A stretch of DNA of 64,000 bases. Origin: Ectothiorhodospira sp. BSL-9 (GTDB lineage: Bacteria; Pseudomonadota; Gammaproteobacteria; Ectothiorhodospirales; Ectothiorhodospiraceae). Positions within the stretch are counted from its first letter, which is position 1. Each line of letters begins with the position of its first letter. Under the pieces are notes generated by a model. It did not search any database and was not told where the DNA came from. It worked only from the letters and a program-made list of their open reading frames with translations. Of this stretch, positions 36,708-53,299 are shown piece by piece. A program made the position numbers and the translations under genes. The stretch lies in the NCBI RefSeq assembly GCF_001632845.1, contig NZ_CP011994.1, forward strand, positions 1,794,501 through 1,858,500. Direction: 5' to 3'.

Positions 36708-36871
36708 CGCCTGAGAGCTACAACCCCGGTTAGAGCTTAACCCCCCTGTCAGGTGGTCCAGTGGATGGGGTCCACTTCATTTGTCAGTTCCAGGGCCGAG
36801 ATCAATCGGGCAATGGAGGTGGCCCGAGGCGTGGGCGGTGTGAAGGATGTGAAGAACGACATGCGTGTCAA

Positions 36872-39800
36872 GTGAGGTTCCGCCTGCGGTCTGCAGGGCG
36901 GCGCCAGCCGCCGGGTGACGAGGGCGCTGTGGAGTTGCTGCGGGCTGAGTTGTTCAGCCTCGAGCAACTCAAGCGCCACGGCGTGGCGCTGGCCGAGCAG
37001 CACCCGCTCTCCTCTCGTCCCGGACCCGACCGGCTGTTGCCCAGGCTGGCGGAGAATTCGCGGCGCCTGCTGGCCGCCTACGATGTGGTCACGACGGCCG
37101 CCTCGCCGGGGCAGCGAGTGGTTCCGGCAGAGGCCTGGCTGCTGGACAATTTCTATCTGATTGAACAACAGATCAGCGAGGTCCGCCGGCACCTGCCGCG
37201 CGGATACAGCCGACAACTGCCGCAACTGGCCGATGGTCCATCCGCCGGTTTTCCTCGTATCTACGACCTGGCACTCGAGCTGATCTCCCATATGGATGGC
37301 CGTGTCGATCACGACAATGCCACCCAGTTTATCGCCGCCTACCAGTCCGTTGAGCCCCTCAAGGTCGGCGAATTGTGGGCCTTTCCCATCATGCTGAAGC
37401 TGGCCCTGCTGGAAAATCTGCGCCGGGTCGGGGTGAGTATTGCCCAGCGTCGTCGCGAGCGGGACGCCGCCCTCGCCTGGGCCGATCGCATGCTGGTGAC
37501 GGCCGAGCAGGAGCCCAAACAGCTCATTCAATTGCTGGCCGAGTTTGCCCGGTCGGATGTGCCGCTGACGGCCCCGTTCGTGGAAGCCTTTGACGCCGCA
37601 CTCCAGGCCCAGGGGCCGGCCCTGGCGTTCATCCAGACCTGGGTGGAGCACAAGCTGCTGGAACAGGGCGTGACCGCCAGCCAGTTGGCGGAAGTAGCCG
37701 GCCGCACGGCCGCAGCCAACCAGATATCCATGGCCAACAGCATTGGCAGCCTGCGCTTCATCGGCAGCATGGACTGGAAGGATTATGTCGAGTCTCTCAG
37801 CGTGATTGAGCGGATCCTGCGGGACGATCCCGTAGGCATGCATGCTGCTCAGGACTTTGCCACCCGAGATCGCTACCGGCACGTGGTGGAGGACGTGGCC
37901 CGGGAGGCCGTCTGCCCGGAGCCGGACGTGGCTCGGGCGGCGATCGAGCTTGCCCGTGCCGCTGCAGCCCAGCACGGAGAAGAAGATCGCAGTGCTCATG
38001 TGGGGTATTACCTGATCGACCGGGGGCGACCGGCACTGGAACAGGCGGTGGGCTGCCGGGTGCCCTGGATATCCCGCATCGGACGCCGTTGCCGACCGGC
38101 CTGCCTGCCCCTGTATCTGGGCGTCGTGATGTGGCTCACGCTGCTGGGTGCGGGGGGCGTGCTGCTGCTTCTGGACGGATTCACCCTCAACACAGGGTGG
38201 GCCTGGCTGCTGGCACTGCCGCTGCTGATTGCGGTGTCGTCACCGGCCGTCTCGCTGGTGAACATGGGTGTCACGCTGCTCTTGACGCCCAAGGCCCTGC
38301 CACGGATGGATTTCTCCGGCGGGATTCCCAAGGCCCGGCGCACCATGGTGATCGTGCCCACCCTGCTGACCGGGCCCAAGGACATCGATCACCTGCTGGA
38401 GGCCCTGGAAATCCGCTATCTGGGTAATCGGGACCCCAACCTGTTCTTTGCCTTGCTCACGGATTTTCCGGATGCCCCCCAGGAGGTGCAGCCCCAGGAC
38501 GCAGCCCTGCTTGAGCAGGCCCGCACGGCGGTGGAGCGACTCAATCTCAGGTATCGGGAGGATCGCCCCGGCATCTTCTACCTGTTTCATCGGCCTCGGG
38601 TGTGGAATCCGTTCGAACGGGTGTGGATGGGCTACGAGCGCAAACGGGGCAAGCTGGAACAATTCAACGCGCGCCTCAGGGGAGAGGGGAGTGGTGCCTT
38701 CTCGGAGATCATCGGGGATACCGGACGGCTGACCTCCATCCGTTTCGTCATCACCCTGGACACCGACACCCAGTTGCCCCGGGACGCGGCGCGCCAGCTG
38801 GTGGGTAACCTGGCGCATCCACTCAACCGACCGGTCCTCGATCCCGAGCGGGGCCGCATCGTCGAAGGTCACGGGATCCTGCAGCCTCGCACTTCCATCA
38901 GCCTGAACAGTGCCCTCCAGTCACGCTTTTCCAGATTGTTCGCGGGTGAGCCGGGCATGGACCCCTACACACGGGAGGTCTCCGATGTGTATCAGGATCT
39001 GTTTGGCGAGGGGTCCTTCGTCGGCAAGGGCATCTACGACGTGGATGCCTTTCGCCATGCCATTGATGGCCGCCTGCCGGAAAACCTGATCCTGAGTCAC
39101 GATCTGCTGGAAGGGGGTTATGCCCGGTCGGCGCTGGTGACGGATGTGGATCTGCTTGAAACGCTTCCGGCCACCTATCCTGCGGAGGCCAGTCGCCGCC
39201 ACCGCTGGATACGGGGCGATTGGCAACTGATGGGCTGGCTGCTGCCGCGCGTGCCAGCCCCCCGGGGGCGCACGCCCGCACGGGTGCCAAACCCCTTGTC
39301 GGCCCTCTCCCGCTGGAAGCTGTTCGACAATCTGCGCCGCAGCCTGGTGGCCCCATCCCTGCTGGCCCTGTTGCTGGGGGGCTGGCTGCTGGGCGTCGGG
39401 CCGGTGTGGCTCTGGAGCCTGCTGGTGCTGGCGCTGGTGGTCGTGCCCGCCCTGTTGCCCGCCATGATCGATCTGGGGCGCAGGCCACAGGACCGGGATC
39501 GTCGGGTACATCTGAGCCTGACCGGCAGGGCCGCGTTACGGCCACTGGCCCAGGCCATGTTGACCCTGGCGTTCCTGCCCTATGATGTGCGGATCTCCCT
39601 GGGCGCCATCGTCTGCTCCTGGGGGCGAATGCTGTTTACCCGGCGAGGCCTGTTGCTCTGGCAATTGCCCAGCTATGCCCGCCGCAATGCCTGCCGGACA
39701 CCCATCGACTTCTTGCGGGAGATGTGGCTCGCACCGATCCTGGCGCTGTCCACGGGAGCTGCCCTGGTCTGGACATCCGGAGATGCCTGGGCCACGCAGG

Positions 39801-42800
39801 GGGTGTTTGCCGCACCCTTCCTGTTGATGTGGCTGGTATCACCCGGCATCGGCTGGTGGATCAGCCGCCCGCCGGGTGACCGCATACCGCGCCTGAACGT
39901 GTCGCAGGAGGCCTTCCTGCGCCGCGCCGCCCGCAGGACCTGGCGCTATTTCGCCGACTTCGTGGGGCCGGAGGATCACTGGCTGCCGCCGGATAATGTC
40001 CAGGAATACCCCAGGCACATGGTGGCTTCACGGACCTCGCCCACCAATATCGGCATGTCCTTGCTGTCGGAACTGGCCGCCCATGACTTCGGCTATGTGA
40101 CCATCGGCGAATGCCTGTCGCGGATCGACCGCACCGTTTCCTCCATGGAGCGTCTGGAGCGCTACCGGGGACACTTCTACAACTGGTATGACACCCGCAC
40201 CCTCAAGCCCCTCCAGCCCAGATACGTCTCCTCGGTGGACAGCGGCAATCTGGCGGGCGCCTTGCTCACCCTGCAGGCCGGGCTGGATGAACTGAAGCAT
40301 CAGCCGGTGCCCTCATCCCGGGCGTTGCAGGGGCTGCTGGATACCCTGGGGGTGCTGGCCGAACACCGATCCGAATCCTCCCCACCCCTGGTTGAACTGG
40401 AACGCCGGGTTCAGGGGTTGCAGGACGCCGTGTCCACCACGGACCTCATCAAGGGCCTGGAGGACATTCAACAGGCGGGCGGCGCCGCAGCCGCCTGGCT
40501 GGCGGCCGAGGGCAGGCCTGCGGGCGACGAGGCATCGGCCTATTGGGTGCAGGCCTTCGACGGGCAGTTGGCTGCCCTGCGGGACGAGCTGGTTCAGCTG
40601 TTGCCGGCGGGTGGGTCCGTGGCGACGGAGGGCCCATCCCGGGCACAACTGGACATCATTGATGACCTGATCCGGCGTTGCCGGCATCTGGCGACCATGG
40701 ATTTCGAGTTTCTCTACGATGCTCCGTCCGGCTTGCTGGCCATCGGCTATGACGTGGGCGAGCGGCGCCGCGATCCGGCCTGCTACGACCTGCTGGCTTC
40801 GGAGGCGCGCCTGGCCAGCTTCCTGCTGATTGCCCAGGGGCAGTTGCCCCAGAAGCACTGGTTTGCCCTGGGGCGTCTGCTGACCAGCCAGGGGCGCGAT
40901 GTGAGCCTGATCTCCTGGAGCGGCTCCATGTTCGAGTACCTGATGCCGCAACTGATCATGCCCAGCTTCGGCAATACCCTGCTGGCCCAGACCTGCAAGG
41001 CGGCCGTGTCGCGTCAGATCGAGTATGGCCGCCAGCGTGCGGTGCCCTGGGGGATTTCCGAATCCTGCTACAACGTCACCGACATGAGCCAGGTCTACCA
41101 GTACCGGGCCTTCGGCGTGCCCGGGCTGGGCTTCAAACGGGGACTGGGGGAAGACCTGGTGATCGCCCCCTATGCCACGGCGCTGGCGCTGACGGTGCTG
41201 CCCGAGGAGGCCTGCCGCAACCTGGAACGGATGGCCTCCACGGGCTTTCTGGGTGAATACGGATTTTACGAGGCGGTGGATTACACGCCGTCCCGCGTGC
41301 CCCGGGGCAAGTCCTGGTTCATCGTGCGCAGTTTCATGGCCCATCACCAGGGCATGAGTCTGCTGGCCCTTGCCCATGCGCTGCTGGATCAGCCCATGCA
41401 GCGTCGATTCATGGCCGATCCGCAGGTGCGGGCAACGGAGTTGCTGCTACAGGAGCGTGTTCCACGGCAGGGGGGCACCTTGCACCCCCATGCCGCCGAG
41501 GTGAGTGCCTCCGCTCAGCCACCCGATGCGGAATTGGGCAGCATCATGCGGGTGTTCAGGGAGACCACCACGCAACTCCCCGAGGTGCACCTGCTGTCCA
41601 ATGGACGCTACCACGTGATGGCCACCCATGCAGGGGGCGGTTACAGCCGCCGACACGGGCTGGCCGTGACCCGCTGGCGTGAGGATGTCACCACCGATGC
41701 CTGGGGCACGTTCATCTACCTGCGTGACCGCGACAGCGGGGAGTACTGGTCCAGCGCCCATCAGCCGACACTGCGGCGGGCGGATCACTACGAGGCCATC
41801 TTCGTGCAGGCCCGCGCGGAATACCGGCGACAGGACCAGGCCATCGACTCCCACACCGAGATCTGTGTCTCCCCCGAGGATGACGTGGAGATCCGGCGTG
41901 TGACCCTCACCAATCAATCCTCCCGAACGCGCCATATCGAGTTGACCAGCTATGCGGAAGTGGTGCTGGCGCCCCTGGCCGCCGACCTGGCCCATCGTGC
42001 CTTCAGCAATCTGTTCGTGCAGACCGAGATTCTGCCTGACCACCAGGCCATCCTGTGTACCCGGCGACGGCGCACGCCGGACGAGCAGGTGCCCTGGATG
42101 TTTCACCTCATGGCCGCGCCAGGGGCCCAGGTGGATGCGCCGTCCTTCGAAACCGATCGTGCCCGCTTCGTGGGCCGCGGTCGCACGCCCGTGAACCCGG
42201 TGGTGATGGATGCAAGAACAAGGGCAGGGCGCCTGTCCGACACCGCAGGCGCGGTGCTCGACCCCATCGTCGCCATTCGTCGCACGGTGACCCTGGCACC
42301 CGATGAATCGGCCAGCGTCCAGATCATCTCCGGGGTGGCCGATACCCGGGAAGCGGCCCTGGGGCTGCTGGAGAAATATTGTGATCGGCACTTTGTTGAA
42401 CGCGCCTTCGAGATGGCCTGGTTCCAGAGCCAGGAGGTGCTGCGTGTGCTCAACGCCACCGAGGTGGATGCCCAGGTCTATGGGCGTCTGGCCAATTCGG
42501 TGGTTTTCGGCAACGCGCTGCGCCGTGCCGCGCCGGGGGTCATCGCCCGCAATCAACTGGGGCAGTCGGGCCTGTGGCGCTTCGCCATCTCCGGGGACCT
42601 GCCCATCGTCCTGCTGCATGTGGGGGATATTCATCGCATCGACCGGGTCAAGCAGGTACTGCAGGCCCACGCCTACTGGCGCATGAAGGGGCTGAGCGCC
42701 GATCTGGTGATCCTGAATGAGGACTTTTCGGGGTATCGGGCGGTCCTGCACGACCGGATCATGGGTCTGATCAATTCAGGCCCCGAGGCGCAGATGCTGG

Positions 42801-45439
42801 ACAAGCCCGGTGGGGTCTTCCTGCGGCGTGCCGAGGAGTTGTCGGAGGATGAGCGGGTGCTGTTGCAGACGGTGGCGCGCATCGTCTTCAGCGATACGGC
42901 CGACACCCTGATCGAGCCGGTGGAGCGCCGCATCTCCGCGAGCCGTCCATCGGATCGGCTGGAGCCGGTGCGCCCGGTGGTCACCGAGACACCCGCGCCC
43001 CCAGTGGCGCGGGAGCTCATCTTTGATAACGGTCTGGGGGGGTTCACGCCGGACGGACGGGAATACGTGATCACCCTGGCACCGGGACAGGCGACACCGG
43101 CCCCCTGGGCCAACGTGATTGCCAGTCCGCACATCGGCACCGTGGTGAGCGAGGCGGGCAGTGCCTATACCTGGGTGGACAACGCCCATGAGTTCCGGCT
43201 GACCCACTGGCACAACGATCCGTTGTCCGATGCCAGCGGCGAGGCCTTCTATATCCGCGATGAGGAAACCGGGGCCTTCTGGTCGCCGACACCGCTGCCG
43301 GCCCGGGGACGCAATGGGTATGTCTGCCGGCATGGTTTTGGCTACAGCATCTTCGAGTACCAGGAGTCGGGCATCGCCTCGGAATCGAGCATCTATGTCG
43401 CCATGGATGCGCCGGTGAAGTGTGTGGTGATCAAGCTGCACAACCATTCCCGGCGTGCGCGGCGATTGTCCCTGACCGGTTATTGGGAACTGGTGCTCGG
43501 GGAGTGGCGGCATGCCAATCTCATGCACATTGTCACCGAAACGGAGCCTCATACCGGGGCCCTGCTGGCCCGCAACGCCTATGGGCAGGAGTGCGCCCAC
43601 AGGCTGGTCTTCGCCCATGTGAGCGGGCGGGACCGCTCCATCAGCGGTGGGCGGACCGAGTTCATCGGCCGCAACGGTTCCATGGCCAACCCGGCGGCCA
43701 TGCGTCGCAAGCGCCTGTCCAACCGGACCGGCGGGGGCATGGATCCCTGCGCAGCGGTGCAGGGCCGGATCGAGCTGGAGGCGGGGCAGTCCACCGAAGT
43801 CGTGTTCGTGTTCGGCGCGGCGACGACTGTGGCTGAGGTGGAGCAGTACATCCATCGGTTCGGCGGCCGGGCAGGGGCCCGCCAGGCCCTTGAGCAGGTG
43901 TGGGAGTACTGGAATCACACCCTGGGTGCGGTTCAGGTGGATACGCCCGATCCGGCACTGAACGTGCTGGCCAATGGCTGGCTGGTCTATCAGACCCTGT
44001 CCAGCCGCCTGTGGGCACGCAGCGGCTATTACCAGTCCGGCGGTGCCTACGGCTTCCGTGACCAGTTGCAGGACGCCATGGCCCTGGTCCATGCCACCCC
44101 CGAGCTGGCCAGGGAGCAATTGATCCGCTGCGCCGGGCGTCAGTTCCTCAAGGGGGACGTGCAGCACTGGTGGCATCCCCCCGGCGGCCAGGGTGTGCGC
44201 ACCCATTTTTCCGACGATTATCTGTGGCTACCCTATGTGGCCTGCCATTACGTGACCACCACCGGGGACACCGGCGTGCTGGATGAACCGGTGCATTTCC
44301 TGGAGGGCCGCGAGCTCAACCCTGACGAAGAGGCTCACTACAGTCAGCCACAACGCTCCCAGGAAGTGGCCAGTCTCTATGAGCACTGTGTCCGCGCCCT
44401 CAGGCATGGTCTGCGGTTCGGGGCGCATCAGTTGCCGCTGATGGGATGTGGCGACTGGAACGATGGCATGAACAGGGTGGGCCACGAGGGTCGGGGCGAG
44501 AGTGTCTGGCTGGCCTGGTTCCTGTTGGACGCCCTGCAGCGGTTTGCCGATCTTGCCCGGTCCCGTGAGGACGGGGTGTTCGCCGAGCTCTGTCAGGCCC
44601 AGGCCCGGCAGTTGCGCCGCCATATCGAAGCGAGCGCCTGGGACGGCGCCTGGTACCGGCGGGCCTGGTTCGACGACGGTACGCCCTTGGGGTCCAGCGA
44701 GAACGATGAATGTCGCATCGATGCCATCAGTCAGAGCTGGTCAGTCCTCTCCGGTGCCGGGGATCCCCAGCGGGCCCGTGAAGCCATGAATGCCGTGTAC
44801 CGGCACCTGGTCAGCCGGGATGACGGCCTGATCCGTCTGCTGGACCCACCCTTTGACCAGTCTGAACTGGAGCCGGGGTACATCAAGGGCTATGTGCCGG
44901 GGGTGCGCGAGAATGGGGGGCAGTACACCCACGCCGCCATCTGGACCACGATGGCCTTCGCCCGGATGGGCGACAGGAAAAGGGCCTGGGAATGCTATGC
45001 CCTGCTCAACCCCGTCCACCATGGCGATACGCCCGAGGCCGTGGCGCGATACAAGGTGGAGCCCTACGTGATGAGCGCGGACGTGTACGGCTCACCGCCC
45101 CACACGGGGCGTGGCGGCTGGACCTGGTATACCGGCGCGGCAGGCTGGATGTACCGGCTGACCGTGGAAACCCTTCTGGGCCTGCAACGGGAGGTGGATC
45201 ATCTGCGCATCGCGCCCTGCATCCCCGACCACTGGGATGCCTATACCCTGCATTACCGCTATCGGGAAACCCTGTATCACATTCATGTGAGCGGCGTGGC
45301 CGGGGGGTCCCGGCGGGTCACTCGCGTCACCCTGGATGGGACCGAGATCCGTGATGAAGCCGCGCTGGAGGCCGGGTGGGGCAGGATTCCCCTGGTGGAC
45401 GACCGTCAAACCCACCATGTGGAGGTGGGCCTGGGCTGA
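36872..45439 (+). CDS. ndvB: Cyclic beta-1,2-glucan synthase (NdvB-like), 2855 aa
   Basis: Giant inner-membrane enzyme. In order: N-terminal helical domain; membrane helices near residues 413-465; GT84 glycosyltransferase (LDTDTQLP near 628, RRHRWIRGDWQ near 774); more helices near 829-870 and 950-1000; a glucoamylase-like domain near 1300-1510; then two GH94-type repeats starting near 1563 and 2046, and a phosphorylase core with YGFRDQLQDAMAL and the catalytic-type Asp in GDWNDGMN near 2527. Relatives make and cyclise periplasmic glucans for osmoadaptation. GTG 36872 overlaps the BON stop (GTGA); codons further upstream lie in BON/IS sequence. Confidence 0.9.
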   Translation: MRFRLRSAGRRQPPGDEGAVELLRAELFSLEQLKRHGVALAEQHPLSSRPGPDRLLPRLAENSRRLLAAYDVVTTAASPGQRVVPAEAWLLDNFYLIEQQISEVRRHLPRGYSRQLPQLADGPSAGFPRIYDLALELISHMDGRVDHDNATQFIAAYQSVEPLKVGELWAFPIMLKLALLENLRRVGVSIAQRRRERDAALAWADRMLVTAEQEPKQLIQLLAEFARSDVPLTAPFVEAFDAALQAQGPALAFIQTWVEHKLLEQGVTASQLAEVAGRTAAANQISMANSIGSLRFIGSMDWKDYVESLSVIERILRDDPVGMHAAQDFATRDRYRHVVEDVAREAVCPEPDVARAAIELARAAAAQHGEEDRSAHVGYYLIDRGRPALEQAVGCRVPWISRIGRRCRPACLPLYLGVVMWLTLLGAGGVLLLLDGFTLNTGWAWLLALPLLIAVSSPAVSLVNMGVTLLLTPKALPRMDFSGGIPKARRTMVIVPTLLTGPKDIDHLLEALEIRYLGNRDPNLFFALLTDFPDAPQEVQPQDAALLEQARTAVERLNLRYREDRPGIFYLFHRPRVWNPFERVWMGYERKRGKLEQFNARLRGEGSGAFSEIIGDTGRLTSIRFVITLDTDTQLPRDAARQLVGNLAHPLNRPVLDPERGRIVEGHGILQPRTSISLNSALQSRFSRLFAGEPGMDPYTREVSDVYQDLFGEGSFVGKGIYDVDAFRHAIDGRLPENLILSHDLLEGGYARSALVTDVDLLETLPATYPAEASRRHRWIRGDWQLMGWLLPRVPAPRGRTPARVPNPLSALSRWKLFDNLRRSLVAPSLLALLLGGWLLGVGPVWLWSLLVLALVVVPALLPAMIDLGRRPQDRDRRVHLSLTGRAALRPLAQAMLTLAFLPYDVRISLGAIVCSWGRMLFTRRGLLLWQLPSYARRNACRTPIDFLREMWLAPILALSTGAALVWTSGDAWATQGVFAAPFLLMWLVSPGIGWWISRPPGDRIPRLNVSQEAFLRRAARRTWRYFADFVGPEDHWLPPDNVQEYPRHMVASRTSPTNIGMSLLSELAAHDFGYVTIGECLSRIDRTVSSMERLERYRGHFYNWYDTRTLKPLQPRYVSSVDSGNLAGALLTLQAGLDELKHQPVPSSRALQGLLDTLGVLAEHRSESSPPLVELERRVQGLQDAVSTTDLIKGLEDIQQAGGAAAAWLAAEGRPAGDEASAYWVQAFDGQLAALRDELVQLLPAGGSVATEGPSRAQLDIIDDLIRRCRHLATMDFEFLYDAPSGLLAIGYDVGERRRDPACYDLLASEARLASFLLIAQGQLPQKHWFALGRLLTSQGRDVSLISWSGSMFEYLMPQLIMPSFGNTLLAQTCKAAVSRQIEYGRQRAVPWGISESCYNVTDMSQVYQYRAFGVPGLGFKRGLGEDLVIAPYATALALTVLPEEACRNLERMASTGFLGEYGFYEAVDYTPSRVPRGKSWFIVRSFMAHHQGMSLLALAHALLDQPMQRRFMADPQVRATELLLQERVPRQGGTLHPHAAEVSASAQPPDAELGSIMRVFRETTTQLPEVHLLSNGRYHVMATHAGGGYSRRHGLAVTRWREDVTTDAWGTFIYLRDRDSGEYWSSAHQPTLRRADHYEAIFVQARAEYRRQDQAIDSHTEICVSPEDDVEIRRVTLTNQSSRTRHIELTSYAEVVLAPLAADLAHRAFSNLFVQTEILPDHQAILCTRRRRTPDEQVPWMFHLMAAPGAQVDAPSFETDRARFVGRGRTPVNPVVMDARTRAGRLSDTAGAVLDPIVAIRRTVTLAPDESASVQIISGVADTREAALGLLEKYCDRHFVERAFEMAWFQSQEVLRVLNATEVDAQVYGRLANSVVFGNALRRAAPGVIARNQLGQSGLWRFAISGDLPIVLLHVGDIHRIDRVKQVLQAHAYWRMKGLSADLVILNEDFSGYRAVLHDRIMGLINSGPEAQMLDKPGGVFLRRAEELSEDERVLLQTVARIVFSDTADTLIEPVERRISASRPSDRLEPVRPVVTETPAPPVARELIFDNGLGGFTPDGREYVITLAPGQATPAPWANVIASPHIGTVVSEAGSAYTWVDNAHEFRLTHWHNDPLSDASGEAFYIRDEETGAFWSPTPLPARGRNGYVCRHGFGYSIFEYQESGIASESSIYVAMDAPVKCVVIKLHNHSRRARRLSLTGYWELVLGEWRHANLMHIVTETEPHTGALLARNAYGQECAHRLVFAHVSGRDRSISGGRTEFIGRNGSMANPAAMRRKRLSNRTGGGMDPCAAVQGRIELEAGQSTEVVFVFGAATTVAEVEQYIHRFGGRAGARQALEQVWEYWNHTLGAVQVDTPDPALNVLANGWLVYQTLSSRLWARSGYYQSGGAYGFRDQLQDAMALVHATPELAREQLIRCAGRQFLKGDVQHWWHPPGGQGVRTHFSDDYLWLPYVACHYVTTTGDTGVLDEPVHFLEGRELNPDEEAHYSQPQRSQEVASLYEHCVRALRHGLRFGAHQLPLMGCGDWNDGMNRVGHEGRGESVWLAWFLLDALQRFADLARSREDGVFAELCQAQARQLRRHIEASAWDGAWYRRAWFDDGTPLGSSENDECRIDAISQSWSVLSGAGDPQRAREAMNAVYRHLVSRDDGLIRLLDPPFDQSELEPGYIKGYVPGVRENGGQYTHAAIWTTMAFARMGDRKRAWECYALLNPVHHGDTPEAVARYKVEPYVMSADVYGSPPHTGRGGWTWYTGAAGWMYRLTVETLLGLQREVDHLRIAPCIPDHWDAYTLHYRYRETLYHIHVSGVAGGSRRVTRVTLDGTEIRDEAALEAGWGRIPLVDDRQTHHVEVGLG

Positions 45440-45480: not shown

Positions 45481-46084
45481 CGGGGGGTGCGTGGTGCGGT
45501 AATATGATCATGAGAATGGCATCGCCGCTGGCAGACAGATCGGCAACCACATGCAGCTGGCGCAAGCCGCCTCCGCTGTCCGTGTGCGAGACCGAGCAGG
45601 ACGATGCGCTTGCGCGCCCCTCGGCCAGGTCCTTCAGCAGACCGGCAAGCGTTGCTCGACTTTCGGGCGCCAGGAAACTGACGACCGTGTGGCCCACGAG
45701 GCGGTCCCTTGGGGCCCCAAGCAGTTCGGCCCCTGCCGGATTGGCTTCGATGACCCGTCCGTCGAGATCCACGGTGAGATAGCCGGCGGGCGCGTTGTTG
45801 AAAAGGACCTTGTAGCGATCCTTTTCCAGGGCAAGCTCCTGCTCGTTGGCCTCCAGCTGTTGATACTGCAGGTCCAGTTCCACCTGATGCGTCTGCAACT
45901 CATGCAATAACCTGAGCGCATCGCTGGCACTGTCCGGGTTGCGGGCCAGGCTGTACAGGAGCGCCAGGGCATCCTCTCCCAGCGTCCAGCCGCGAGTGGG
46001 GGGAGCAGTGCCCTCCCTGAGCCGTTCCTCAGCGTCAGCGCGCAACTGCTCATGCCCTCGGGGTTCGCGGGTGAACTTGGGCAT
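45473..46084 (-). CDS. Single PAS-domain protein
   Basis: 203 aa. A charged helical N-terminus includes LYSLARNPDSASDALRLLHELQTHQVELDLQYQQLE, the same kind of leader seen in the 29804 protein. It is followed by a PAS domain (about residues 92-195, NNAPAGYLTVDLDGRVIEANPAGAELLG). No output domain is present, so it may work as a sensor partner. I chose ATG 46084 (GGAGG four bases upstream) over ATG 46132. Confidence 0.78.
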   Translation of the reverse strand: MPKFTREPRGHEQLRADAEERLREGTAPPTRGWTLGEDALALLYSLARNPDSASDALRLLHELQTHQVELDLQYQQLEANEQELALEKDRYKVLFNNAPAGYLTVDLDGRVIEANPAGAELLGAPRDRLVGHTVVSFLAPESRATLAGLLKDLAEGRASASSCSVSHTDSGGGLRQLHVVADLSASGDAILMIILPHHAPPGA

Positions 46085-46153
46085 ACAGCCTCCATTGAGA
46101 TCAATCGTGAGTGGCGTTCGCCTGTTTTGCAATCAATACTACTGTGAGCCCAT

Positions 46154-46690
46154 TCACATGTCTGTCTGCCATCCCACATAGCCTGGAGACCGGGTGAGGG
46201 GCGCTACCGGCCTGAATGCCTCCCCGCCGACCTTGTCCCCCGGTTCGATTCCGTGGCGTTCGAACCAGCCCGCATTCACCTCCAGGGCGAAGCGCACCGG
46301 CTCAGAGGCGGTGTGCGAATCGGTGGTTTCCGGCTGCATGGTCATGATGTCGGTGATGCGATGATCGGCGCTGATGAACGCCACGTCCAGGGGAATGAGG
46401 GTGTTTTTCATCCACATGCCGTAATGGGCGTCCTGGGGCCATACAAAGAGCATCCCCTGGCCGTCGGGCAGGTGGTCGCGGAACATCAGGCCCTGGCGGC
46501 GACTGGCCGGGTCCATGGCCCTTTCCACCATGAGGGTGTGTTCGCCAACGGTGAGCGGCAGCAGCAGGGGAGCGCTGTCATCGGCAGGGTGCGAGTAGCG
46601 CAGCAGGGGAATGCAGGCCGTCAGCAGCAATGCGCCTATGAGACTTGCCCACAGCAGTTTCCGGGACGGGCCGGAGGGCCTGGATGGCAT
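46154..46690 (-). CDS. DUF192 lipoprotein
   Basis: 178-aa precursor with lipobox LLTAC. The DUF192 domain covers about residues 45-165 with RRQGLMFRDHLPDGQGMLFVWP and WMKNTLIPLDVAFI, its hallmarks. Function is unknown; in other genomes it is often linked to envelope or metal-related genes. It lies 55 bp downstream of hslO on the same strand. Confidence 0.87.
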   Translation of the reverse strand: MPSRPSGPSRKLLWASLIGALLLTACIPLLRYSHPADDSAPLLLPLTVGEHTLMVERAMDPASRRQGLMFRDHLPDGQGMLFVWPQDAHYGMWMKNTLIPLDVAFISADHRITDIMTMQPETTDSHTASEPVRFALEVNAGWFERHGIEPGDKVGGEAFRPVAPLTRSPGYVGWQTDM

Positions 46691-46745
46691 CAGTCAGTGC
46701 TCCCTGGAGGGGGTGTCCACCACTCCGGTCGGGCCGGCGGTCGGG

Positions 46746-47603
46746 CTAGTGCAGTGTCGGCGGTGATTCATCGAAGAGGGCCGCCACAGCGGCGGCGTCC
46801 AGTCGGTATTCCCGGTTGGCCAGGTCGTCACGGATGACCACCTCGCCCTGTTCGCTCAAGACGGATTCCACCTGCTCGCGCCCCAGGGAGCGCAGCATAT
46901 TACGTACCTTGGTCCAGTCCTCCGGCGCGTCGTGGATGACACGGCGGGGCTCGAAGACGCGCACCTTCTCTTCCGGGAAGAGGCGGGTGAGCAGGTCCTG
47001 CGCCGGGAGTTCAATCTGCTCCTGCGGGGTGACGGTCGAGGCCAGTTGCTCGACACGGTTCCAGCCGTCCGGATCCCGGGCGTCGGCCTCGGGCAGCTTT
47101 TGCAGCAGCAGGCCGGCGACGCCGGTCCTGGTGGCGGCCAGGAAGAGTCGGGAGGGCAGTTGATCCGACAGCCCCAGGTAGTGCTCGAACATGCTGGCGA
47201 TGCGTTCCCCCTGCATGGGCACCACGCTCTGCCAGGGCTGGCGCATGGTGGGCATGTCCAGGGAGAGGAGCAACTGACCATCACCCAGGAGCTGCGGGGC
47301 AGGGGCCGGCTCGATGCGGGGCTCCGTCTGGGCCATGGCCCGCAGATTCAGGCGCTCGTCGCAGTCCACCACCAGCAGGGAGATGGGGCCATCCCCCTTG
47401 AGCTGAAAGGTGATCCTTCCGGGTTGCTTGAGCGATTCGGAGATCAGTAGCGCGGTGGCGCACATCTCGCCCAGCAGTTCGGTGGCTGGAAAGGGGTAGT
47501 CCCGATCGGCCATGACCTGCTGCCATATGGGCCCCAGGCGCACCACGGCGCCGCGGATGTCCAGGTCCTCGAGCAGGAAGCGCTGCAGTTGATCCTGGCT
47601 CAT
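46746..47603 (-). CDS. hslO: Hsp33-family chaperonin lacking the redox-zinc cysteines
   Basis: 285 aa and alignable with E. coli Hsp33 end to end, including GEMCATALLIS, DGPISLLVVDCDERLNLRA and QQL-type C-terminal residues. The redox switch is missing. In an ungapped alignment the four zinc ligands (CxC and CxxC) fall on Ala226, Glu228, Asp259 and Ala262. Only two other Cys remain (48, 81). The flanking pattern REQVESVLSEQGEVVIRDDLANREY keeps the fold pattern, so this is divergence, not frameshift. It cannot be activated by disulfide formation as in E. coli. Overlaps yffB by four bases. Confidence 0.9.
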   Translation of the reverse strand: MSQDQLQRFLLEDLDIRGAVVRLGPIWQQVMADRDYPFPATELLGEMCATALLISESLKQPGRITFQLKGDGPISLLVVDCDERLNLRAMAQTEPRIEPAPAPQLLGDGQLLLSLDMPTMRQPWQSVVPMQGERIASMFEHYLGLSDQLPSRLFLAATRTGVAGLLLQKLPEADARDPDGWNRVEQLASTVTPQEQIELPAQDLLTRLFPEEKVRVFEPRRVIHDAPEDWTKVRNMLRSLGREQVESVLSEQGEVVIRDDLANREYRLDAAAVAALFDESPPTLH

Positions 47604-47968
47604 GCCAGCACCGCCTTGTACTGATCGGTGTCGAAGCCCACCAGCACCGTATTGCCCCTCTCCAGCACCGGTCGCCTGATCAGGGTCGGGTGCGTCTCCA
47701 TCAACTCACGGGCGCGGCGCTCGTCCAGTGGATCACGCGTCTCCTGGGGAAGCTTGCGCCAGGTGAGGCCCCGGCGGTTGATCAGTGCATCCCAGCCCAC
47801 GGCCTGGCTCCAGTGAGACAGTCGCGAGGCGACCACGCCAGATTTCTTGTAGTCGATGAAGGTGTGCTCGATGCCATGATCATTCAGCCAGGCGATGGCC
47901 TTTTTCATGGTGTCGCAGTTCTTGATGCCGTATAGGCGGCAGGCAGAGTCTTGCTCGAGGTCGGACAT
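47600..47968 (-). CDS. yffB: ArsC/Spx-family protein YffB
   Basis: 122-aa thioredoxin-fold protein with YGIKNCDTMKKAIAWL, the YffB form of the ArsC active site, and TWRKLPQETRD, followed by HPTLIRRPVLERG. YffB relatives have been suggested to act as glutathione-dependent reductases; arsenate reduction is not established for them. First gene of the yffB-hslO-DUF192-PAS run. No SD is visible before ATG 47968. Confidence 0.85.
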   Translation of the reverse strand: MSDLEQDSACRLYGIKNCDTMKKAIAWLNDHGIEHTFIDYKKSGVVASRLSHWSQAVGWDALINRRGLTWRKLPQETRDPLDERRARELMETHPTLIRRPVLERGNTVLVGFDTDQYKAVLA

Positions 47969-48227
47969 GGGAGGGGATGCGGGCCTGTGTGTACGAGTCC
48001 CGGATTATAACGCCCTGTCCGGCAACGGGAACACACTCCCGGTGCGTCAGTGGGGAGGATGCGGGGAGAGAGAGGGGGCAGAGAAACGGGGGAGGGTAGG
48101 TAGTGGAACGGTAGAGGCGGCTGACAAACCGCGTCGGATAGGCCTCTGCAAAGTCACTATCACGACGTGTGAGGGATTTGTCAGCGCGGCCTCTACCCGC
48201 ACCGCGACTTCCGATGCCGCGAAGACC
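47969..48227. other. Intergenic region with large stem-loop downstream of the antenna genes
   Basis: 259 bp without a supported gene. It is purine-rich on the plus strand near 48060-48105. A long imperfect inverted repeat joins 48111-48128 (GTAGAGGCGGCTGACAAA) to 48177-48196 (TTTGTCAGCGCGGCCTCTAC), enclosing a 48-nt loop. It starts 31 bp after the beta-subunit stop on the minus strand, so it may stabilise or end the antenna transcript. Confidence 0.45.
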
Positions 48228-48368
48228 TCAGTAGAAGGGTCTCCACAGGAACACCAGGAAGTGGGCAGCAGCCGCCAGCACCATGAACACGGTGAAGGTG
48301 GTCTTGAACTGCTCGTGGAATTCCTTGGCTTGTTCTTCGCTCAGGCCGGAGATGCTGTTTTCGTTCAT
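48228..48368 (-). CDS. pucB: Light-harvesting antenna beta polypeptide (LH2-like)
   Basis: 46-aa bacteriochlorophyll-binding protein: polar N-terminus LSEEQAKEFHEQFKTTF, one membrane helix, the bacteriochlorophyll-ligand His36 in AAAAHFLVFLWRPF, and the terminal WRPF typical of beta chains. It starts 18 bp after the alpha gene stop. Assignment to the peripheral LH2 rather than core LH1 is by general likeness; pucB is used provisionally. Confidence 0.87.
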   Translation of the reverse strand: MNENSISGLSEEQAKEFHEQFKTTFTVFMVLAAAAHFLVFLWRPFY

Positions 48369-48386
48369 GGTCTAGGTCCTCGTCGC

Positions 48387-48587
48387 TCAGGCGATGTCTT
48401 GGGTGGCTTCAACTTCGCTGTGCAGCGGGTTGTAGCTGTCGTTGCTGTAGACAAAAGCGTGAACCACCAGGGCCACCACCAGAACGGCCATCAGGATGGG
48501 CATCAGCCAGGTGCCGGGGTTGACCACCAGCCACAGCTTCCAGTCGTCGCGGGGGTTGCTGGGCTTGCTCGGTCTGTATTCGCTCAT
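48387..48587 (-). CDS. pucA: Light-harvesting antenna alpha polypeptide (LH2-like)
   Basis: 66-aa alpha chain with DDWKLWLVVNPGTWLMP at the membrane entry, a single helix and the ligand His43 in VALVVHAFVYSND. The VVNP motif is closer to LH2 alpha than to the FDPRR form usual in LH1. ATG 48587 (AGAGG upstream) gives a normal antenna length; an ATG at 48596 is possible. Unlike the common puf/puc order beta-alpha, alpha comes first here. Confidence 0.87.
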   Translation of the reverse strand: MSEYRPSKPSNPRDDWKLWLVVNPGTWLMPILMAVLVVALVVHAFVYSNDSYNPLHSEVEATQDIA

Positions 48588-48727
48588 GGATATCATCCTC
48601 TTGAGATTGAAGGTGGGTCCTTGGAGACCCTGAACACAACACATGGTGCTAATCACGAGCGTGGCGGGCTATCCTTCCCGAGTCACCCGAAAGTGGCGGG
48701 AATGACCCTGCTCGTAGTCCGGGTGTG

Positions 48728-48755
48728 AGTCTACGTTGACACGGGGGGATGTCAA
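48728..48755 (-). promoter_or_regulatory. Antenna promoter with overlapping palindrome
   Basis: On the minus strand TTGACA (48755-48750) and TAGACT (48733-48728) are 16 bp apart, a plausible sigma-70 promoter giving a 130-nt leader. TTGACA is also one arm of the perfect palindrome TTGACA-N8-TGTCAA (48736-48755), a likely operator for light or oxygen control. The geometry differs from the TGT-N12-ACA sites of PpsR/CrtJ. Confidence 0.5.
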
Positions 48756-48835
48756 GGCAGGTGGACGCCCCCTCTGCCCGGACAGCCCCAGAACCCTTCA
48801 AAGTGTTGAGCCAAATCATGAATAGCGAGGTGCCC

Positions 48836-49039
48836 ATGACCCGGATACACATCACTGGAATGAGTTGCGGCCATTGCGAGGCCAGCGTGGAAAAGGCCCT
48901 GGCGGCCGTGCCTGGTGTGGACCAGGTGGTGCGAGTGGACCGCCAGCGGGAGGAGGCGGTGGTGGAGGGGCCAGCCGCCGCCCAGGCCCTGGAGGAGGCC
49001 ATCATCCGTCTGGGTTTTCAGGCAAGGGTGATGGAATAA
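48836..49039 (+). CDS. copZ: CopZ-like heavy-metal-binding protein
   Basis: 67-aa HMA-domain protein with the metal-binding MSCGHC (residues 8-13) and the beta-alpha-beta-beta-alpha-beta pattern of copper chaperones. It would bind Cu(I) in the cytoplasm and pass it to partners; no copper ATPase is nearby. ATG 48836 with GAGGTG upstream is preferred; ATG 48818 would add six residues. Confidence 0.85.
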   Translation: MTRIHITGMSCGHCEASVEKALAAVPGVDQVVRVDRQREEAVVEGPAAAQALEEAIIRLGFQARVME

Positions 49040-49100
49040 GTCCCGTCTTCACGGGTCCAATGGACCTCCATACGTCGAGATCCGGACCGAGGATCCCCAT

Positions 49101-50177
49101 GTGAAAGCCGCAAAACTCGTTGCCCCGGGCATCCTGGCCCTGGTCGTCGTGGCCGCCGCCATCTATTTGTGGGGGTGGGACCGCTCAGGGCCCCCCGTGA
49201 CCGCCGGGGGTGGCCCCCCCGCCGCCGTGCCGGTGATCGTTGCGGAGGTGGGCTGGCGTGAGTTTCACACTCAACTCCAGGCCCTGGGTACGGCCCGGGC
49301 CAACGAGGCGGTGGACATCACCGCGCGGATCACCGCGCCGGTGGAGGCCATCGAGTTCACGGACGGCATGCAGGTGCGCCAGGGGCAGGTGCTGGTGCGC
49401 CTGGCCGCGGCGGAGGAGGCGGCCGAGGCCCGGGAGCGGCATGTGGGGGTGCAGGAACAGCAGCGTGAACTGGAGCGCATCCGGGGGCTGGTGGCCGATC
49501 GCAACCTGCCTCGCCAGCGGCTGGATGAGCAGCAATCACGCCTCAGTGAAGCCCAGGCGCGCCTCGAGGCCGCCCAGGCGCGGGTGAGGGACCGGGTGGT
49601 GCGGGCGCCCTTCGACGGCGTGGTGGGGTTCCGCAGGGTGAGCCTGGGCGCCCTGGTGAGCCCCGGCACCATCATCACCACACTGGATGACATCAGCGTC
49701 ATCAAGCTGGATTTCAGCGTGCCCGAAACATTTCTGGCCGGGGTGAAGTCCGGCCAGCTGATCCAGGCCCGTGCCGCCGCCTTCCCCGGTGAGCGCTTCG
49801 CCGGCGAAGTCACCAGCGTGGATGTGCGCGTGGACCCGGTCACGCGGGCCGCCATGGCCCGGGCCACCCTGCCCAACCCCGACGGTGTCCTGCGTCCTGG
49901 CATGCTGCTCACCGTGACGCTGCTCAAGGACGAGCGCCGCTCCCTGAGTCTGCCTGAAGGGGCCCTGCTGCGGCAGGCCGATCAGGCCTATGTGTTCGTG
50001 CTGGATGATGACACGGTGGTGCGTCGCGAGGTGCGCACCGGCCGACGTGCGCCGGGGGTGGTGGAGATCCTGGACGGGTTGCAGCCCGGCGAACGCGTGG
50101 TGAGCGAGGGTGCGGTGCGGCTGCGACCGGGTGCCCGGGTCACCGTGGCTGACATGGCACCGGCCGCCGGAGACTGA
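49101..50177 (+). CDS. RND efflux periplasmic adaptor subunit
   Basis: 358-aa membrane fusion protein. One N-terminal membrane helix (residues about 8-26), biotinyl-lipoyl halves (ITAPVEAIEFTDGMQVRQGQVLVRL and VRAPFDGVVGFRRVSLGALVSPGT) around a coiled-coil hairpin (about 95-160), then beta-barrel and membrane-proximal domains. It bridges the RND pump to an outer-membrane channel, which is not encoded here. GTG start with GAGGA upstream. The pump gene follows after 5 bp. Confidence 0.92.
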   Translation: MKAAKLVAPGILALVVVAAAIYLWGWDRSGPPVTAGGGPPAAVPVIVAEVGWREFHTQLQALGTARANEAVDITARITAPVEAIEFTDGMQVRQGQVLVRLAAAEEAAEARERHVGVQEQQRELERIRGLVADRNLPRQRLDEQQSRLSEAQARLEAAQARVRDRVVRAPFDGVVGFRRVSLGALVSPGTIITTLDDISVIKLDFSVPETFLAGVKSGQLIQARAAAFPGERFAGEVTSVDVRVDPVTRAAMARATLPNPDGVLRPGMLLTVTLLKDERRSLSLPEGALLRQADQAYVFVLDDDTVVRREVRTGRRAPGVVEILDGLQPGERVVSEGAVRLRPGARVTVADMAPAAGD

Positions 50178-50182
50178 CGCCC

Positions 50183-53100
50183 ATGATCCTCTCCGATGTG
50201 GCCAATCGCCGCCCCGTGCTGGCCGTGGTGCTCAGTCTGCTCCTGATCACCCTGGGGATTCTCTCCTTCGATCGCCTGGCCCTGCGGGAATATCCGGACA
50301 TCAATCCCCCGGTGGTCACGGTGCAGACCCAGTATCCGGGTGCCAATGCCGCCATCATCGAAAGCCGCATCACCCAGCGCCTGGAGGATCGGGTGAGCGG
50401 CATCGAGGGCATCAAGTGGATTTCTTCCCAGAGCATGGACGGGCAGTCGCAGATCACCATTGAATTCAATCTGAGCCGGGACATCGACGCCGCCGCCAAC
50501 GATGTGCGTGAGGCGGTGGGTCGGGTGCTGGGGCAGTTGCCCGACGAGGCGGACCCACCCCAGGTGTTCAAGGCCGATACCAATGCCGATCCCATCATGT
50601 GGCTCAACCTGGCCAGTGACACCCTGGATGGGCTGGAACTGACCGACTACGCCGAGCGCTATCTGGTGGATCGACTCTCCACGGTGGAAGGGGTGGCGCT
50701 GATCCGTATTGGCGGTGCCAAGCGTTATGCCATGCGCATCTGGCTGGACCGGGAGGCGCTGGCTGCTCGTGGGCTCACCGTGGACGATGTGGAACAGGCC
50801 CTGCGCCGGGAAAACGTGGAACTGCCGGCGGGACGGGTGGAATCGGTGGACCAGGAATTCACCGTGCGCCTGGCCCGGGGATACCGGGATGCGGAGGACT
50901 TCTCCGGCATGGTGATCCGCCGGGGTGCCGATGGGCATCTGGTGCGTCTGGGGGAGGTGGCCCGGGTGCAGGTGGGCCCGGAAAATGATCGCACCGAGCT
51001 GCGGGGCAATGGTGAGGACATGGTGGGGCTGGGGGTGATCCAGCAATCCACGGCCAATACCCTGGCGGTGTCGCGGGCGGTACGTGCCGAGGTGGACCGA
51101 ATCAATCCCACCCTGCCCGATGGGCTGCGTCTGGCCATGAGCTATGACACCTCGGTGTTCATCGACGGGGCCATCAAGGAGGTCTTCATCACCCTGTTCA
51201 TCGCCATGAGCGTGGTGATCCTGGTGATCTACCTCTTCCTGGGCAGCGTACGCGCCATGCTGGTGCCTGCAGTCACCGTGCCGGTGTCCCTCACGGCCTC
51301 GTTCACCGTGCTGTTCGCCCTGGGTTTTTCCGTGAATCTGCTGACCCTGCTGGCGCTGGTGCTGGCCATTGGCCTGGTGGTGGACGATGCCATTGTTGTG
51401 CTGGAGAACATCCATCGCCGCATCGAGGCGGGGGAGCCTCCATTGCTGGCGGCCTACCGGGGGACGCGTCAGGTGGGGTTTGCCGTGGTGGCCACCACCC
51501 TGGTGCTGATCTCCGTGTTCGTGCCCCTGGCCTTTCTGGAGGGCAACATCGGCCGGCTGTTCACCGAGTTTGCCCTGGCCATGGCGGCGGCGGTGGCCTT
51601 CTCCAGCATCGTGGCCCTGACGCTTTCACCGGTGATGTGCGCCCGACTGATCCGCAGGGACACCCAGAAGACGGGATTGAACCGGCACATGGCCCAGGGC
51701 TTTGAGCGGCTGGGCCGGTTCTATGCCCGGCTGCTGCGCGGGTCCCTCAAATGGCCATTGGTCACCGGCCTGGCCATGGTGGTCATGTTCGTGGCCATCG
51801 TCCTGCTCATCGAGAAGATTCCCAACGAGTATGCCCCCCGGGAGGATCGGGGGGCCTTCTTCGTGCTGGTGGATGGCCCGGAAGGGGCCAGTTACGAGTA
51901 CATGCAGGCGCAGATGCGGCAGGTGGAGGCGCGCATGCTGCCCCTGCTGGAGTCCGGCGAGGCCATGCGGGTGCTGGCCCGCACGCCCCGGGGCTTTGGC
52001 AACGCCGATGTGGTGAACAACGGGTTCGGCATCATCGTGCTGGAGCACTGGAACCAGCGGGAGCGCTCCGCCTGGGAGATCATGGACAGCCTCTCGGCCC
52101 AACTGCGGGAGATCCCCGGGGTGCGCACCATCACGGTGATGCGTCAGGGGCTGGGTGGCCGCCGGGTCGGTCAGCCGGTGCAGTTCGTCATCGGCGGGCC
52201 TGACTACGACGAGCTGGTGCAATGGCGTGACATCATGCTGGAGCGGGCGGCGGAAAACCCGGGCCTGCGGGGGCTGGATTCGGACTTCAAGGAGACCAAG
52301 CCGCAGTTGCTGGTCACCGTCGACCGGGATCGGGCGGCGGATCTGGGGGTGTCCTTCGAGACCATCGGTCGCACCCTGGAGACGGTCATGGGGTCGCGCC
52401 GGGTCACCACCTATATCGACCGGGGCGAGGAGTATGACGTGATCCTGGAGGGGGACCGGGAACAGCGCCGCACACCGGATGACATCCGCAATGTGCATGT
52501 GCGGTCAGAGATCAGCGGCGAGCTGATTCCGCTGTCGAACATGGTGAGCTTCGTGGAACAGGCGGATGCCGCCAGCCTCAATCGCTACAACCGCATGCGG
52601 GCCATCACCCTCACCGCCGGCCTGGCGCCGGATTACACCCTGGGTGAGGCCCTTGATTATCTGGACGCCCTGGCGATGGAGGTGCTGCCGGCCACGGCGC
52701 GTATCGATTACAAGGGGGAGTCGCTGGAATACCAGGAGGTGGGCGGGGCCGTGCTGTTCATCTTCGTGCTGGCGCTGGTGGTGGTGTTTCTGGTTCTGTC
52801 GGGACAGTTCGAGAGCTTTGTGCAGCCCCTGGTGATCCTGACCACCGTGCCCCTGGCGGTGGTCGGGGCATTGCTGGGTCTGTGGCTGACCGGGCAGAGT
52901 CTCAATATCTACAGTCAGATCGGCATTGTCATGCTCATTGGTCTGGCCGCCAAGAACGGCATCCTGATCGTGGAATTCACCAACCAGCTGCGGGATGCGG
53001 GGCAGGCCTTCAGCGAGGCCCTGGTGGAGGCGGCCCGCATTCGTTTGCGGCCTGTGCTGATGACGGCGGTGACCACGGTGATGGGCACGCTGCCACTCAT

Positions 53101-53299
53101 CATGGCCAGTGGCCCGGGGTCGGAGAGTCGGTTCGTGATCGGTACGGTGGTGTTTTCCGGGGTGTTGTTCGCGACCCTGTTCACCCTGTTCGTGGTGCCG
53201 GTGGCCTACCAGACCCTGGCCCGACGCACGGGTTCGCCCGGTGATACCGGCCGTCGCATTGATGCCCTCGATCATCAACACGGGCCGGCGGAGGTCTGA
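50183..53299 (+). CDS. RND efflux transporter, HAE1-like (AcrB/MexF type)
   Basis: 1038-aa inner-membrane pump with 12 predicted helices and two large periplasmic loops. The proton-relay Asp pair of helix 4 is present (LAIGLVVDDAIVVLENIHRR). N-terminal DVANRRPVLAVVLSLLLITLG and the C-terminal IVMLIGLAAKNGILIVEFTNQLRD are typical of the hydrophobe/amphiphile group. The substrate is not predictable from sequence. It forms an operon with the adaptor; the CopZ gene upstream does not by itself make it a metal pump. Confidence 0.93.
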   Translation: MILSDVANRRPVLAVVLSLLLITLGILSFDRLALREYPDINPPVVTVQTQYPGANAAIIESRITQRLEDRVSGIEGIKWISSQSMDGQSQITIEFNLSRDIDAAANDVREAVGRVLGQLPDEADPPQVFKADTNADPIMWLNLASDTLDGLELTDYAERYLVDRLSTVEGVALIRIGGAKRYAMRIWLDREALAARGLTVDDVEQALRRENVELPAGRVESVDQEFTVRLARGYRDAEDFSGMVIRRGADGHLVRLGEVARVQVGPENDRTELRGNGEDMVGLGVIQQSTANTLAVSRAVRAEVDRINPTLPDGLRLAMSYDTSVFIDGAIKEVFITLFIAMSVVILVIYLFLGSVRAMLVPAVTVPVSLTASFTVLFALGFSVNLLTLLALVLAIGLVVDDAIVVLENIHRRIEAGEPPLLAAYRGTRQVGFAVVATTLVLISVFVPLAFLEGNIGRLFTEFALAMAAAVAFSSIVALTLSPVMCARLIRRDTQKTGLNRHMAQGFERLGRFYARLLRGSLKWPLVTGLAMVVMFVAIVLLIEKIPNEYAPREDRGAFFVLVDGPEGASYEYMQAQMRQVEARMLPLLESGEAMRVLARTPRGFGNADVVNNGFGIIVLEHWNQRERSAWEIMDSLSAQLREIPGVRTITVMRQGLGGRRVGQPVQFVIGGPDYDELVQWRDIMLERAAENPGLRGLDSDFKETKPQLLVTVDRDRAADLGVSFETIGRTLETVMGSRRVTTYIDRGEEYDVILEGDREQRRTPDDIRNVHVRSEISGELIPLSNMVSFVEQADAASLNRYNRMRAITLTAGLAPDYTLGEALDYLDALAMEVLPATARIDYKGESLEYQEVGGAVLFIFVLALVVVFLVLSGQFESFVQPLVILTTVPLAVVGALLGLWLTGQSLNIYSQIGIVMLIGLAAKNGILIVEFTNQLRDAGQAFSEALVEAARIRLRPVLMTAVTTVMGTLPLIMASGPGSESRFVIGTVVFSGVLFATLFTLFVVPVAYQTLARRTGSPGDTGRRIDALDHQHGPAEV

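Follow-up and report, generated by a model that had tools for sequence, protein, structure and literature searches.

Hsp33 is the textbook redox-switched chaperone, and its switch is built on four zinc/redox cysteines. What can such a protein still do when all four are gone? The question is raised by hslO of Ectothiorhodospira sp. BSL-9, a gene in the 64,000-nucleotide stretch of DNA analyzed here (the window; contig NZ_CP011994.1, positions 1,794,501 to 1,858,500), which an initial annotation had described as encoding an Hsp33 without any of these residues, either constitutive or switched by another cue. Two published accounts treat the four cysteines as invariant: one calls them absolutely conserved (PMC4735815), and the other describes them as fully conserved, counting fewer than 10 sequences out of 1579 that lack the second (PMC7423844, section 5; here and below, papers given by PMC number are cited from excerpts). 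Searching the open-licence literature by titles and the beginnings of abstracts, we found no paper on a cysteine-less bacterial Hsp33; in the same literature, Hsp33 combined with Rhodocyclaceae gave nothing, and Hsp33 combined with Ectothiorhodospira gave off-topic papers only.

Results

The Hsp33 gene of the window is full-length and single-copy. It (46746..47603, minus strand, stop codon included) specifies 285 amino acids, which match the Pfam family HSP33 (PF01430) over the entire profile (1-273 of 273), scoring 213 bits where the cut-off is 21.4. A second hslO had been suggested as something to look for; PF01430 has this one match in the 3.55-Mb source genome. The N-terminal chaperone domain (approximately residues 1-172; 47088..47603, minus strand), the boundary of which we placed after the E. 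coli domain limits given in PMC7423844, holds the only two cysteines of the protein, C48 and C81, both N-terminal to the C-terminal domain. The linker (approximately residues 173-213; 46965..47087, minus strand) keeps both linker motifs of the Hsp33 family, TxxxxE and RL(Y/F) (PMC7423844), as T190-E195 and R207-L208-F209. The remainder is the former zinc/redox-switch domain (approximately residues 214-285; 46749..46964, minus strand), which has no cysteine and is modelled as folded to about residue 278.

Residues 206 to 282 align without a gap to E. coli Hsp33, and the alignment bears out what the initial annotation had read at the four zinc positions, all on the minus strand: alanine at codon 226 in the place of Cys1 (46926..46928), glutamate at codon 228 in the place of Cys2 (46920..46922), aspartate at codon 259 in the place of Cys3 (46827..46829), and alanine at codon 262 in the place of Cys4 (46818..46820). 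The CxC and CxxC cysteines that bind zinc in HslO proper are absent. Since these four thiols are gone and the domain has no other cysteine, the protein as encoded cannot carry the CxC/CxxC zinc-thiol switch. It also falls below the cut-off of the NCBIfam equivalog for HslO (NF001033), with 183.7 bits against 244; five members of the clade described below that we tried scored 194-231, and two canonical relatives scored 283-284. Judged by these profiles, the window protein is filed in the Hsp33 fold family and outside redox-regulated HslO.

A sequencing error, the objection anticipated at the outset, is very unlikely as the cause, because six further Ectothiorhodospira loci (L032-L037, 71-99% identical), taken from separate records, also lack all four cysteines; the E. 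haloalkaliphila protein (L032) is 99% identical to the window Hsp33. With the window included, 7/7 copies found in the genus are without them. Hsp33 was matched in 78 of the 116 relatives searched and, within the genus, in 7 of the 10 genomes (G000-G009, the window genome among them). The other three (G001, G006, and G008, each 99% complete) gave neither an Hsp33 nor a yffB match, so Hsp33 is dispensable in the genus. In other genera of the source family, the 13 plus 2 loci that we read all encode ordinary four-Cys Hsp33. Whether the loss is clade-wide among related phototrophs had been put forward as a check: it is genus-wide among the copies found, and it is not a trait of phototrophs as such.

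The three genomes without a match would fit a decaying gene, an Hsp33 that has ceased to matter and is on its way out. We regard this as very improbable, for it is contradicted by the reading frames, open over their full length in all seven Ectothiorhodospira copies, and by dN/dS, which lies between 0.00 and 0.31 over all pairs and regions computable. Among the seven genes, the values are 0.03-0.21 for the N-terminal domain, 0.07-0.31 for the linker, and 0.00-0.20 for residues 214-285 (two values were not computable, and several dS exceed 1). A broader comparison, in which C-terminal domain identity was taken at matched N-terminal domain identity with the Cys columns excluded, gave 0.50, 0.55, 0.65, and 0.74 in four successive bins for zero-Cys proteins vs 0.50, 0.55, 0.60, and 0.77 for four-Cys proteins, the pairs being non-independent and the last four-Cys bin consisting of 10 pairs. 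By these measures, constraint on the former redox domain is not relaxed after cysteine loss. Constraint of this strength fits a client- or EF-Tu-binding role of the domain equally with a switch role.

An AlphaFold2 model of the window Hsp33, built with a 15-row alignment, has a mean pLDDT of 89.8; for residues 211-280 in blocks of ten, the values, listed in ascending order, are 78, 83, 84, 85, 85, 89, and 94. The predicted structure has the Hsp33 fold, linker and C-terminal domain included, and Foldseek matches it to B. subtilis 1vzy_A (TM 0.84), which is the reduced form of Hsp33 (PMC7423844), and to T. maritima 1vq0_A (TM 0.81). The C-terminal domain is predicted in its resting fold, with no disorder. 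A four-Cys control (L042), modelled with a similar alignment, reached a mean pLDDT of 87.3 and C-terminal blocks of 86-92, somewhat higher than most of the corresponding blocks in the window protein; because the control is the more confident in this domain, the model is silent on stability without zinc, and AlphaFold2 may return the fold of the family regardless of sequence.

These results bear on the constitutive option, under which the zinc-free linker would be permanently loose and the chaperone always on. A single linker-destabilizing mutation does make E. coli Hsp33 constitutively active (PMC4735815), and the title of structure 1i7f ascribes constitutive chaperone activity to the domain. 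A clamp that had lost its function should decay, yet here the constraint equals that of four-Cys proteins and the domain is retained and modelled as folded; moreover, Hsp33 that had been plasma-treated and then reduced again, and whose zinc binding was impaired, showed no activity (PMC10598452). We therefore favor the constitutive option less than the initial annotation did in naming it first, rank it third among the explanations considered, and think it improbable. The retained domain suggests, on the alignments and the model, that it still gates or binds something.

Where does the cysteine-less protein come from? A scan of named genomes gave, as the nearest proteins beyond the genus, those of Propionivibrio and of other Rhodocyclaceae-like records; they are 58-63% identical and keep a single cysteine in the switch domain. 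A profile of these relatives, run over 150 genomes of the family to which Propionivibrio soli belongs (Rhodocyclaceae in the NCBI taxonomy), matched Hsp33 in 134. We read 133 of these, leaving out G431, in which hslO lies in four pieces, and taking G519 and G552 from the larger piece only (partial). Not one of them has the full set: Cys1 and Cys4 remain in 69, Cys1 alone in 7, and none of the four in 57. Hsp33 of the two-Cys kind is present as well in three further families (f176, f203, and f224) of the order of G366, and in family f54, where 61 genomes have a match: 30 of the 31 sequences read for the alignment are two-Cys, as are two read later, and the remaining one (L153) is masked at and before the Cys3 place. 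In f54 (L048, L049, L051, and L141-L168), His258 is invariant in the 30 rows with Asn259, beside Cys262, and these two-Cys proteins possibly have a different metal site. Among the sequences read, the reduced-Cys clade turns up most frequently in the Propionivibrio family.

The full alignment has 269 rows, corresponding to 254 distinct trimmed sequences, with some genes reached twice and the window gene counted twice; on the strength of identical coordinates, G436, G467, and G479 were taken to be G586, G632, and G675, and f201 to be the family of G412. It comprises 79 four-Cys, 107 two-Cys, 15 one-Cys, and 68 zero-Cys rows, and a three-of-four-Cys state occurs nowhere in it. The cysteines that remain are always the same ones, Cys1 and Cys4 in 107/107 two-Cys rows, the masked L153 among them, and Cys1 in 15/15 one-Cys rows.

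The residue changes in the reduced-Cys switch domains, as aligned, are patterned. Four-Cys proteins have F-x-C-x-C-S/T and C-E-F-C at the zinc sites; the reduced-Cys classes mostly have Pro227, Asp229, Asp/Glu260, and Asn263. Place 259 is Asp in 67/68 zero-Cys, 15/15 one-Cys, and 76/107 two-Cys rows, the remaining two-Cys rows having Asn (30) or the masked residue of L153. The Cys1 place in the 57 zero-Cys rows outside Ectothiorhodospira is Trp in 57% and Phe in 17%, and 66 of the 68 zero-Cys rows are without any cysteine from residue 212 on, the other two having one elsewhere.

Might these residues compose some other chemical switch, based on a different metal held by Asp, Glu, or His ligands, on intermolecular disulfides through C48 and C81, or on amine chlorination? 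The near-constant Asp259 and the basic residue at place 258 in most zero-Cys rows would suit such a switch, as would the invariant His258 beside the two kept cysteines of f54 and the presence of C81 in 60/68 zero-Cys and 15/15 one-Cys rows. C81 is not a specific gain, however, being present in 73/107 two-Cys and 45/79 four-Cys rows as well, and C48 is a cysteine in 21/68 zero-Cys rows. Place 228, the glutamate of the window protein, is Pro or Arg in most zero-Cys rows other than those of Ectothiorhodospira, H224 is the only conserved histidine between residues 218 and 269 in the Ectothiorhodospira rows, and the zero-Cys logo, inspected for substitute zinc ligands, displays no conserved His/Cys set. 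We consider a replacement chemistry to be a long shot.

A tree was built from hslO residues 1-212, a range chosen to keep the switch domain from shaping the topology, and without 104 of the 269 rows, which were short or nearly identical to others; the method was a quick one, by which 65 of the 162 inner branches stay open. All 126 reduced-Cys rows fall on one side of a single branch with an SH-aLRT of 99. Within this clade, the window Hsp33 joins that of E. marina (L033; 99), then the other Ectothiorhodospira proteins (84), and then the one-Cys protein of L083 (99). The zero-Cys label changes seven times on the tree, and at least four of these changes are forced by well-supported branches. Taken with the fixed pattern of remaining cysteines, the changes on the tree suggest an order of loss in which Cys2 and Cys3 went together, followed by Cys4 and then by Cys1. 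The tree is unrooted; because four-Cys Hsp33 is spread over distant bacteria, we infer that the direction was from four to fewer.

The initial annotation had also placed hslO in a conserved operon with yffB, a name that we have taken over. In the window, yffB (47600..47968, minus strand; ArsC family, Pfam PF03960) lies directly upstream and overlaps the start of hslO by 4 bases, and to this extent the linkage stands; it is conserved in only part of the clade. Outside f54, yffB adjoins hslO in 35 of 49 other reduced-Cys loci; it does so in 0/31 f54 and 0/79 four-Cys loci, some loci in these counts being repeats of one gene, and two of the seven Ectothiorhodospira loci (L033 and L037) have no yffB neighbor. 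A yffB tree, resting on 121 columns and a bootstrap that had not fully settled, puts the Ectothiorhodospira genes inside those of the Propionivibrio family, grouped with L083, L084, and L087 (98/94), and apart from the yffB genes that other genera in their own family carry (98/93). Because the two gene trees and the synteny agree, these relationships indicate that yffB and hslO were passed as a unit into Ectothiorhodospira, and the nesting of the Ectothiorhodospira genes would make the Propionivibrio family the donor.

Other features of the locus are recorded here for completeness. A downstream DUF192 gene, considered as part of a conserved unit, was rejected, as it occurs only in the window genome, L032, and L033 (repeated as L080) among the loci listed. 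Five Ectothiorhodospira regions upstream of yffB, scanned for a sigma-32-like promoter, gave best scores of 10-11, and shuffles of the window upstream region mostly score 10-11 too; since real and shuffled sequences score alike, control by heat has no support from the promoter. A sigma-70 scan of 45900-48800 gave two sites vs 0.5 expected. To one side of the locus, the window encodes a 2892-aa protein with GH94 and glucoamylase-type domains (36761-45439, plus strand), which we take to be cyclic beta-glucan synthase-like; to the other (48749-53299, plus strand) it encodes an HMA metal-binding protein and, after it, a membrane-fusion protein of the HlyD type and a pump of the AcrB type.

How rare is the reduced-Cys state? 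A class-wide search matched Hsp33 in 193 of 369 genomes, and among the 30 matches listed, 5 are reduced-Cys (the window, G366, G237, G341, and G099) and 25 are four-Cys; scores do not cleanly split the two kinds, as the four-Cys protein of G378 (296 bits) outscores the reduced-Cys protein of G099 (287 bits). Phylum-wide, 265 of 398 genomes have a match, and the 30 listed include 4 reduced-Cys (the window, G366, G609, and G586) and 26 new four-Cys proteins. We read 86 further loci, made up of those 26 and 60 others, many chosen for low scores: 82 are standard four-Cys, one is four-Cys with shifted spacing, two are the later f54 two-Cys sequences, and one has a single cysteine. The protein with shifted spacing (L328; G084 C284:5440-6261) has CxxC instead of CxC as its first pair. 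The single-Cys protein (L336; G104 C98:506-1297), from a 1.1-Mb draft genome, keeps its cysteine at the Cys3 place, and its loss is apparently unrelated to the clade. Among the loci read, which are a minority of the matches and do not amount to a census, the reduced-Cys state looks rare outside the clade.

Discussion

We suggest, with a confidence only a little short of even, that the window protein is a redox-blind, zinc-free Hsp33 that is held closed by the packing of the protein itself and opens on heating or under some other unfolding stress. The C-terminal domain would stay folded at rest through protein contacts that replace zinc, supplied by a helix start (P-E/x-D) and a turn (R/H-D-D-x-x-N), and would still hold the linker, as a clamp, against the face that binds clients. 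What frees the linker and turns the holdase on would then be heat or a different unfolding stress, and not the oxidation of thiols. Of the two stresses to which the known switch responds, heat would remain as a trigger and oxidation would have dropped out. We arrive at this reading because the domain is retained and constrained, and because of the literature on the linker, zinc, and EF-Tu: linker unfolding is described as necessary and sufficient for Hsp33 activation (PMC4735815), and zinc release by itself as insufficient (PMC10598452).

The main rival, which seems to us unlikely, holds that the protein has been frozen as reduced Hsp33 and performs a reduced-state function only, such as binding EF-Tu through its folded C-terminal domain and, under heat, promoting the unfolding of EF-Tu and its degradation by Lon; its work as an oxidative holdase would have been given up. 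Such a role would explain why the C-terminal domain is conserved after the loss of every cysteine, and in E. coli, EF-Tu binding is reported for reduced Hsp33 only and requires a folded redox-switch domain, with EF-Tu being unfolded as well as bound (PMC8614738). The retention of the linker motifs in the window protein counts against it, and the EF-Tu role itself rests on cited overexpression work together with the in vitro work of the authors (PMC8614738).

A broader proposal, to which the redox-blind, unfolding-opened Hsp33 would be the end point, is that this lineage dismantled the zinc-thiol switch in a fixed order, by way of a two-Cys (Cys1-Cys4) form that was possibly a zinc-free single-disulfide switch, and ended several times in a thiol-free, still gating domain in which an acidic/basic and hydrophobic core replaces the metal. 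We offer it tentatively, as a history that is possible and on balance doubtful. If it is true, one family holds both redox-gated and purely physical (heat, pH, ionic strength) switches, along with the natural intermediates between them.

Whatever the mechanism, a natural series of four-, two-, one-, and zero-Cys proteins is at odds with the statements of strict cysteine conservation in the excerpts of PMC4735815 and PMC7423844. The series supplies ready-made variants with which one can ask how much of the regulation of Hsp33 depends on zinc and thiols and how much is thermal, and also whether the reduced state has the more essential function.

How does the window protein compare with the Hsp33 proteins already described? 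It may resemble the reduced Hsp33 that acts on EF-Tu in having a role for which a folded C-terminal domain is required and oxidation is not; that domain is zinc-bound in the EF-Tu-acting protein (PMC8614738), and in the window protein it has none of the four zinc cysteines. With the redox-regulated HslO of E. coli it shares the full-length Pfam match, the gapless C-terminal alignment, the linker motifs, and the predicted fold; the E. coli-type protein has the four zinc/redox cysteines, whereas the window protein has none and stays below the NF001033 cut-off. The Hsp33 of the alga Chlamydomonas is reported to be a natural case of lost zinc binding, with a greater sensitivity to mild heat or oxidation (PMC7423844). 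The algal protein has lost one cysteine of the four, whereas the window protein has lost all four and has no thiol in the domain. Finally, the constitutively active E. coli forms, 1i7f by its title and the linker mutant (PMC4735815), resemble it in having no working redox switch. Those forms were made in the laboratory; the window protein is natural, and its whole switch domain is under selection.
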